NCBI GenBank assembly: GCA_000181795.3
Contig: CM012954.1
Coordinates: 12,744,400 to 12,808,399, forward strand
DNA from: Trichinella spiralis
Lineage: Eukaryota > Nematoda > Enoplea > Trichinellida > Trichinellidae
Direction: 5' to 3'
DNA: 64,000 bases
The position numbers were made by a program, and so were the translations under genes. Positions 20,978 to 22,333 of the stretch are shown here, piece after piece (the first letter of the stretch is position 1; every line of letters starts with the position of its first letter). The notes under the pieces are model-generated. The model searched no databases, was not told the origin of the DNA, and saw only the letters and a list, made by a program, of their open reading frames with translations.

Positions 20978-22333
20978 ATGTCCAAATTGGATTTCGATAA
21001 ATGCGAAGCGACAGACAAAATGAACGCTGTCGTGAATGGAAATTGCGATTGGGAGCATCCGGTGCACCGAATTCTGCAAGAAACTATGGAAAAGCGACGT
21101 ACCGCTTTGATGCACAACGGTCCTTACTGGCACCCGCTTAGCGTACCAACGTACGGTGTGGATGAAGTGATGAACTGCTTGGATTCGTTGCTAAAATTTC
21201 AGACCACCATGGGTCCCAAGGTGAAGGGCTTCGAACGGAATTTTGCCAAAGCGATAGGCGTCCGTCATGCGGTGATGGTGAACAGCGGTTCGTCGGCCGA
21301 TTTGCTCTGCTCGATGGCGTTGACCATGGCTTCGGGCAAAATTCTGAATCCTGGCGATGAGATCCTGGTGCCAGCTTTGACATGGCCAACCCAGATCTGG
21401 TCTCCACTGTTGGCCAAATTGAATGTTCAACTGGTGGACGTTGATCCGGTCACTTTGAACACAACACCAGAAATCGTGGAAAAAGCGATCGGCCCGAAGA
21501 CGAAAGCGTTGTTCATTGTCCACTTGATGGGCAATGTGACGGACATGGATCGAATGGTAGAAATTTGCAATAAGCATAATCTAATTTTGCTGGAAGACTG
21601 TTGCGAATCTTTGGGTGCCAAATACAGAGGTCGTCATGTGGGAACGTTCGGTTTGGCCGGCGCCTTTTCCTTCTTCTTCGCCCACCACATTGTAACCATG
21701 GAAGGTGGCATGGTTGTGACCAACGACGATCAGTTTGCCGACAACATTCGCGTTCTTCGTGCCCACGGCTGGACCAGAGATTTGAATACCAAATTCCAAA
21801 ACCTCAATGGAATTGATCCCAGATTTCTGTTCATCGACAGCGGCTTCAATGTACGACCGACCGAACTGAGCGGTGCGTTTGGTGAAATTCAACTTCAACG
21901 GATGCCAGTTTTCTTGAAACGACGCCTCTCGGTTTACGAAGCATTCTCAGACTACATCAGCAAACATCTCGCCAATTATTTGTCCATGCCAAAGGTTCAC
22001 GACCACGTAGAACCCAGTTGGTTTTCATTGCCAATTTTAATTAACAAACAAGCCGCACTGGAAGCAGGATTTACTAAAAAGGATTTGATTGATTATTTGG
22101 AAAAAGCTGGAATTGAAACCAGACCAGTACTGATTGGAGATATCAGGAAGCAGCCAGTTGCTGAACATTTCCAGTTTATTCGTGACAGTCACTTGCCCGG
22201 AGTGGAATACATTGACAATAATGCGTTTGTTATTGGGCTTCATTCAGGATTCAAATATGATACAGAAGATCAAGTGCAACTGCACATCAATAAGCTTTGC
22301 CAGACTTTTCAACAATTTTTCCAAAGTTTTTAA
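20978..22333 (+). CDS. DegT/DnrJ/EryC1-fold sugar 3-dehydratase, ColD-like (candidate tyvelose-pathway enzyme)
   Basis: A single uninterrupted exon encodes 451 aa of the PLP-dependent DegT/DnrJ/EryC1 family. Visible landmarks are NSGSSA (102-107, cofactor phosphate loop), EDCCESLGA (206-214, with D207 facing the pyridine nitrogen) and SFFFAHHIVTMEGG (231-244). In aminotransferases of this family the SFxxxK lysine binds PLP. Here that position is H236, the change that converts the family to 3-dehydratases (ColD, and RfbH/E1). The cysteine-rich iron-sulfur segment of RfbH/E1 is absent; the region reads RAHGWTRDL then DPRF and NVRPTELSGAFG, as in ColD. I therefore expect PMP-dependent C3 deoxygenation of an NDP-4-keto-6-deoxyhexose, possibly GDP-4-keto-6-deoxymannose. 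A roughly 45-residue N-terminal extension precedes the usual start. No intron, and GC-richer codons than neighbours, suggest lateral origin or a retrocopy. Polyadenylation signals lie at 22388 and 22401. Family is certain; substrate is inferred. Confidence 0.9.
   Translation: MSKLDFDKCEATDKMNAVVNGNCDWEHPVHRILQETMEKRRTALMHNGPYWHPLSVPTYGVDEVMNCLDSLLKFQTTMGPKVKGFERNFAKAIGVRHAVMVNSGSSADLLCSMALTMASGKILNPGDEILVPALTWPTQIWSPLLAKLNVQLVDVDPVTLNTTPEIVEKAIGPKTKALFIVHLMGNVTDMDRMVEICNKHNLILLEDCCESLGAKYRGRHVGTFGLAGAFSFFFAHHIVTMEGGMVVTNDDQFADNIRVLRAHGWTRDLNTKFQNLNGIDPRFLFIDSGFNVRPTELSGAFGEIQLQRMPVFLKRRLSVYEAFSDYISKHLANYLSMPKVHDHVEPSWFSLPILINKQAALEAGFTKKDLIDYLEKAGIETRPVLIGDIRKQPVAEHFQFIRDSHLPGVEYIDNNAFVIGLHSGFKYDTEDQVQLHINKLCQTFQQFFQSF

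Follow-up and report, generated by a model that had tools for sequence, protein, structure and literature searches.

The gene and its active site

The window analysed here is a 64,000-nucleotide stretch of Trichinella spiralis DNA (contig CM012954.1, positions 12,744,400 to 12,808,399), which carries an intact intronless gene for a protein resembling the bacterial enzyme ColD. The frame runs from ATG to TAA with zero internal stops and is the longest among the 36 open reading frames (ORFs) of at least 100 amino acids in the window. The features of the gene, by window position, are the following.

20978..22333, plus strand: ColD-like nucleoside diphosphate (NDP)-4-keto-6-deoxyhexose 3-dehydratase gene, intronless, 451 aa (P0001), assigned from profile, structure and tree matches
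21587..21610, plus strand: codons 204-211, LLEDCCES, including Asp207, aligned with EDNCES of ColD and EDCCDA of E1
21683..21688, plus strand: codons of H236-H237, with H236 in place of the pyridoxal 5'-phosphate (PLP) lysine and aligned with ColD position 188
22388..22406, plus strand: two AATAAA polyadenylation-type signals (at 22388 and 22401), 55 and 68 bases 3' of the stop codon, read from the sequence and presumed to act as such

In the genome profile search the protein matched PF01041 (DegT/DnrJ/EryC1) at 2.3e-76, with 261 bits against a gathering cut-off of 19.8. Asp207 is taken, from what is general in the family, to be the Asp that contacts the pyridine nitrogen. Alignments to solved ColD structures placed His236, the first His of FFAHHIVTMEGG within the stretch AHHIVTMEGG, at the PLP-lysine position of aminotransferases, opposite ColD position 188, where chain 3b8x has Asn and chain 2r0t has Lys, this being the residue mutated in ColD (PMC8987622; this and the other papers cited here were available in part). 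Both His residues of the pair were kept in 6/6 nematode sequences covering the site, and an aminotransferase identity was rejected since His, not the Schiff-base Lys of sugar aminotransferases, occupied the position in all six. The change from Lys to His marks both ColD and E1 (PMC8987622). A complete DegT-family frame with His at the Lys site is far beyond chance, and the description in the earlier note on this DNA, that of an intact frame of this family encoding a bacterial-type NDP-sugar 3-dehydratase with the Lys-to-His change, was borne out by the family match and the aligned His.

Resemblance to ColD and E1

Among the PDB entries the best match of the protein was ColD (2gms, 258 bits), followed by two E1 entries (197 and 193 bits) and by the aminotransferases. 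E1 requires a [2Fe-2S] cluster, whereas ColD does not (PMC8987622), and the E1 stretch GRDCYCAPGCDNTC had no counterpart in the aligned nematode protein, so that the cysteine motif of the cluster was absent. The best NCBIfam match was NF011936 (RfbH) with 272.9 bits, below its cut-off of 423. The public name of the protein, "Lipopolysaccharide biosynthesis protein RfbH", is misleading because of this low score and the missing cysteines, and an E1/RfbH assignment was largely refuted by these two points and the lower structure score. By its sequence the enzyme resembles ColD rather than E1/RfbH; of the two kinships that the earlier note had offered, the score and the cysteines favour the first, and the missing cluster cysteines speak against the second.

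Second copy and distribution in nematodes

The PF01041 search of the genome (G000; 53.1 Mb, 14 contigs) gave two genes, that of the window and a paralogue, L002 (G000:C2:2755595-2756545), which are both intact and intronless, are 50-51% identical to each other and have kept both His residues as well as the EDCCES motif. In the protein database search two Trichinella clusters of 13 and 16 members, one single T. spiralis model and clusters of Trichuris suis and T. muris ranked ahead of every bacterial protein (best 120 of 6,977). Among the matches listed, the Trichuris homologues were all of the L002 type, while the window type was found in Trichinella alone. A query with the nematode alignment named no nematode besides Trichinella and Trichuris (best 120 of 6,874), and ascarylose producers were absent among the matches listed, which covered the best 120 of about 7,000 scored proteins per search and do not amount to a nematode survey.

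Identity of the window protein was 98% to a protein of T. britovi and 88% to the T. spiralis model. Two collinear stretches (192 and 173 residues) contained 1 difference from T. spiralis and 7 from T. britovi, so the Trichinella source proposed earlier holds, T. spiralis being the nearer of the two species compared.

The deposited T. spiralis model (P0003) lacked the active-site stretch, and the DNA of window positions 21628-21700 was read there in another frame; its stretch RSSCGNV...PPHCNHGR is this other-frame reading with one residue different. The model looks mis-spliced, and a search of the annotation for the catalytic motif would consequently miss the gene in T. spiralis. At locus L030 the paralogous dehydratase (4428-5798, minus strand) lay opposite plus-strand frames, of which that at 2893-3396 resembled, by eye, a Capicua-type C-terminal motif.

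Phylogeny and likely transfer

Of the 80 loci that were fetched, 6 were dropped and 74 each contributed one ColD-like ORF scoring more than 250 bits to a quick tree of 96 rows; 34 rows selected from this set were used for a careful tree. In the 34-row tree the six nematode rows were monophyletic (100/99), with a bacterial ColD-like clade as their sister; ColD joined these two next (92/85), and E1/RfbH stood at the far end. E1 and RfbH formed a clade of their own in both trees. Within the nematodes the window type branched first and L002 grouped with Trichuris (100/97), and the quick tree gave the same nematode clade with L002 and Trichuris together at 98. A duplication of the ColD gene in Trichinella only was rejected by the AU test (p = 0.008), for a group named after the quick tree and with the window copy on a long branch. 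Owing to this long branch, the branching order is likely rather than certain.

Since the six nematode rows fall into one clade, a single transfer is likely. The simplest history suggested by the trees would be one transfer from bacteria to a common ancestor of Trichinella and Trichuris, followed by an early duplication, with the window type lost or undetected in Trichuris; the duplication appears older than the split of the two genera. The donor cannot be named, because the sister group of the nematode clade is a mixed set of phyla. A paper on horizontal transfer in Trichinella concerns, in the part available, cyanase (PMC9079694).

Nucleotide-sugar genes and the likely substrate

GDP-mannose 4,6-dehydratase (GMD; GDP, guanosine diphosphate) was present in the genome, with exons covering model positions 14-305. 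No match to CDP-glucose 4,6-dehydratase or glucose-1-phosphate cytidylyltransferase (TIGR02622 and TIGR02623, E<=0.001; CDP, cytidine diphosphate) was obtained in a six-frame search that is blind to introns, and two weak matches to the dTDP-glucose-dehydratase model TIGR01181 (dTDP, deoxythymidine diphosphate) proved to be the two GDP-L-fucose synthase (GFUS) genes described below. With GMD found and the CDP and dTDP dehydratases not, the likely substrate of the ColD-like enzymes is GDP-4-keto-6-deoxy-D-mannose, and hence probably GDP-linked rather than CDP-linked. 3-Deoxygenation of this compound and reduction at C4, with C5 untouched, would give 3,6-dideoxy-D-mannose, that is D-tyvelose.

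Two GFUS genes and the candidate reductase

Two GFUS genes occur in Trichinella, with their introns at identical positions, and were sisters at 92/93; among the matches listed (best 120), one GFUS sequence was seen per Trichuris species. Both genes were located by profile and protein queries.

G000:C2:7716638-7718021, minus strand: GFUS gene L026
G000:C2:14702936-14704080, plus strand: GFUS gene L027, faster-evolving

Of the 103 positions that do not vary across 14 other animals, 2 were changed in L026 only, 10 in L027 only and 3 in both. In L027 the position of Leu76 is Phe (Leu in 14/14 animals) and the DGQ motif (14/14) has become EGA. At the position of Trp208, L027 has Asn and L026 has Phe, the other animals having Trp (8/14) or Leu, Phe or Tyr (6/14); roles for Leu76 and for Trp208, which stacks on guanine, have been described in GFUS (PMC12362431). 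L027 is thus a candidate reductase by its divergence and not by a lost catalytic residue.

That the worm has a ColC or RMD reductase of bacterial type was rejected, since one protein query and the profiles PF01370, PF16363 and PF04321 gave GMD and the two GFUS genes. The same searches for short-chain dehydrogenases/reductases (SDRs) also gave genes read by eye as GALE, threonine-dehydrogenase-like and DHRS7B-like.

Gene neighbourhoods of the bacterial relatives

The nearest bacterial clade, as read off the 96-row tree, comprised 27 loci among L031-L058, some of which were cut by contig ends. A GDP-fucose-synthase-like SDR lay within 1.5 kb in 21 of the 27, with the epimerase Cys and His kept in 21/21; over all loci such an SDR was seen in 47 of 74, and several outside the clade lacked Cys or Tyr. 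The six clade SDRs that were scanned all matched best to NF047922 (GDPFucSynFcl) with 333-418 bits, under the cut-off of 500, as did the SDR of L106, which adjoins the row nearest ColD (297 bits), and that of L069 (305 bits). Judged by these matches, the bacterial SDR and dehydratase look like a colitose-type pair.

Some loci showed other arrangements. In L057 (6969-9164, Pelagibacteraceae) the GDP-fucose-synthase-like SDR and the ColD-like dehydratase were joined in one ORF of 731 aa. ORFs resembling thiamine diphosphate enzymes stood beside the ColD-like pair in L032, L034, L037, L039 and L055 (the cluster of the L039 ORF was scanned), accompanied by RfbF in L032, L039 and L055 and by a separate E1 in L032, L034 and L039. 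The gene sets of these five loci suggest a second dideoxysugar, which we assume might be branched and yersiniose-like. In the gammaproteobacterial loci L072, L086 and L088 the adjoining SDR lacked the Tyr and Cys of GDP-fucose synthase, possibly indicating a different follow-on reaction.

Proposed route to tyvelose and its alternatives

The N-glycans of Trichinella larvae are capped by tyvelose (3,6-dideoxy-D-arabino-hexose), which has been termed genus-specific and is the immunodominant, diagnostic epitope, in agreement with the earlier note (PMC4465845, PMC3755266). We consider it fairly probable that the ColD-like protein is a GDP-4-keto-6-deoxy-D-mannose 3-dehydratase dependent on pyridoxamine 5'-phosphate (PMP), of bacterial origin, transferred once and then duplicated, which feeds the synthesis of GDP-tyvelose. 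In the predicted route the fucose pathway would be tapped, with GMD turning GDP-mannose into GDP-4-keto-6-deoxy-D-mannose, from which the window enzyme or its paralogue would form GDP-4-keto-3,6-dideoxy-D-mannose. His236 would serve as the base and acid expelling the C3 hydroxyl, and PMP would be regenerated from glutamate in the ColD fashion, as expected from the missing Fe-S cluster motif. A 4-ketoreductase sparing C5, for which the diverged GFUS paralogue is the best candidate, would then yield GDP-D-tyvelose, whose sugar residue would cap the larval N-glycans, and the route would dispense with the 2-epimerase that the bacterial CDP route requires. The earlier claim that the gene supplies the 3-deoxy step of tyvelose synthesis is therefore biochemically coherent, with a substrate that is probably GDP- rather than CDP-linked and a role that either copy may play. 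That reading had the chemistry and the organism right and overlooked the second paralogue, the Trichuris homologues and the 4-ketoreductase step.

Several observations weigh against this assignment. The C5-retaining step is the weakest link, since both worm GFUS paralogues keep the equivalents of Cys116, His186, Tyr143 and Lys147. In human GFUS, Cys116 and His186 drive the C3/C5 epimerisation, and in the Cys116 to Ser mutant much substrate is reduced ahead of C5 epimerisation (PMC12362431); with the epimerase Cys and His kept, both paralogues would be expected to yield L-colitose and not D-tyvelose. The window copy appears to be the more diverged of the two dehydratases: of the 94 positions that hardly vary across 36 bacterial rows, 5 were changed in it alone and 6 others in it and at least one other row, and 3 varied solely among the L002 and Trichuris rows. 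Trichuris carries a homologue, and we met no report of tyvelose in this genus; a paper on invertebrate N-glycans describes fucosylated epitopes for Trichuris suis and, in the part available, never mentions tyvelose (PMC6935376). In the quick tree ColD and E1 both lay across the midpoint from the nematodes, the nearer one being unsettled. GMD was the sole NDP-sugar 4,6-dehydratase that the six-frame search recovered from the genome, and a multi-exon dehydratase could escape such a search. In the 27 bacterial loci GMD occurred in 6, the CDP-glucose gene RfbF also in 6, a separate E1 in 5 and an RfbG-like gene in at least 3, a lower bound as a TIGR02622-like ORF in L033 scores below the cut-off. 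As GMD and RfbF are equally frequent, the nucleotide cannot be told from the bacterial context by itself, and the proposed substrate rests more on the gene set of the worm than on the operons.

A more far-reaching proposal, which we would place somewhat below an even chance, is that an animal-made route combines the acquired bacterial gene, the fucose pathway and the duplicated GFUS gene L027, re-tooled as a C5-retaining reductase, without any CDP sugar or 2-epimerase. If so, the whipworms (Trichuris), in which an L002-type ColD copy and one GFUS each were seen, should hold an undetected dideoxyhexose.

The alternative that survives best, though we think it unlikely, is that L002 is the tyvelose 3-dehydratase and that the window copy has moved on to a different NDP-sugar or role. 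The L002 type is nearer to the Trichuris and bacterial enzymes by the position counts given above, and the branch of the window copy was longer than that of L002 in both trees; but neither copy has lost the paired His residues or the EDCCES motif, and the confinement of the window type to Trichinella among the matches listed, with the L002 type common to Trichuris, better fits a sugar restricted to Trichinella. It is less probable still that the enzymes feed another 3,6-dideoxyhexose in Trichinella and Trichuris, for example GDP-L-colitose made by ordinary GFUS, with tyvelose arising by an unrelated route. The Cys and His kept in both nematode GFUS proteins and in the SDRs adjoining the nearest bacterial genes would suit this, whereas the sugar reported from Trichinella is tyvelose and the PF01041 search of the genome gave these two ColD-like genes and no others. 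That the protein is of E1/RfbH type and belongs to the classical CDP-tyvelose route seems very improbable to us: the public name, the NCBIfam match and the undecided position of ColD and E1 in the quick tree favour it, but the cluster-cysteine motif is missing, the ColD score is higher, E1 and RfbH keep to their own clade, and no CDP-glucose synthase or dehydratase was found.

Genomic setting

Ten ORFs or exons of the window were scanned against Pfam, of which five had a match and five had none. The animal-type neighbours recognised were a phosphorylase gene downstream, two CTNNBL exons further off, and BTB and C2H2 matches upstream.

23225..26353, plus strand: intron-containing carbohydrate phosphorylase gene; 25805-26353 matched PF00343, and exon 23225-23458, without a match in the Pfam scan, was assigned by eye

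Contaminating bacterial DNA, as which an intronless gene of a bacterial-type family with 46% G+C against 35% for the window might be read, can practically be dismissed, since the gene sits on a 17.5-Mb contig among these neighbours and is followed by polyadenylation-type signals, an intact paralogue lies 10 Mb away, the clusters of 13 and 16 members (shown names Trichinella) and the Trichuris homologues are all in one clade, and no bacterial protein in the comparison exceeds 52% identity to the nematode proteins.

Significance

The synthesis of 3,6-dideoxyhexoses in nematodes is unsolved. For the ascarylose of C. elegans the exact pathway was not yet known in a 2018 paper (PMC6246695) and was said to need further work (PMC6719183), and in the literature searched, which covered few subscription papers and was available in part, we found neither a gene for tyvelose synthesis nor a link of ColD or RfbH to Trichinella tyvelose. 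Two candidate 3-dehydratases and a candidate reductase make the pathway testable. Tyvelose is the sugar recognised by host antibodies, and the worm probably makes it by a route other than the bacterial one.

Comparison with known systems

In bacteria tyvelose is made via CDP-paratose and a 2-epimerase. The GDP route predicted for the worm differs from this, CDP-tyvelose being the form named for bacteria (PMC8987622). E1/RfbH (3bb8, 3bcx), the CDP-4-keto-6-deoxyglucose 3-dehydratase, shares with the nematode protein the Lys-to-His change, the 3-deoxygenation and the EDCC motif, but the nematode protein is without the cluster cysteines and the genes of the CDP route were not found in the worm genome. 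The ColD-like enzymes of the 27 loci, from Omnitrophota, Desulfobacterales, Planctomycetota, cyanobacteria and others, are the closest by the tree, with 42-51% identity and the HH..TMEGG motif; a GFS/ColC-like SDR (GFS, GDP-fucose synthase) adjoins most of them, whereas a query with such an SDR shows just two animal GFUS genes in the worm. E. coli ColD (2gms) belongs to the same DegT family, has the same Lys-to-His change and likewise no [2Fe-2S] motif, and the stretches HHIxTMEGG and RAHGWTR are common to both in an alignment spanning ColD residues 20-383. It is nonetheless distant, the nematode enzymes standing in a separate clade and being encoded in an animal nucleus, where the expected product would be tyvelose rather than colitose.
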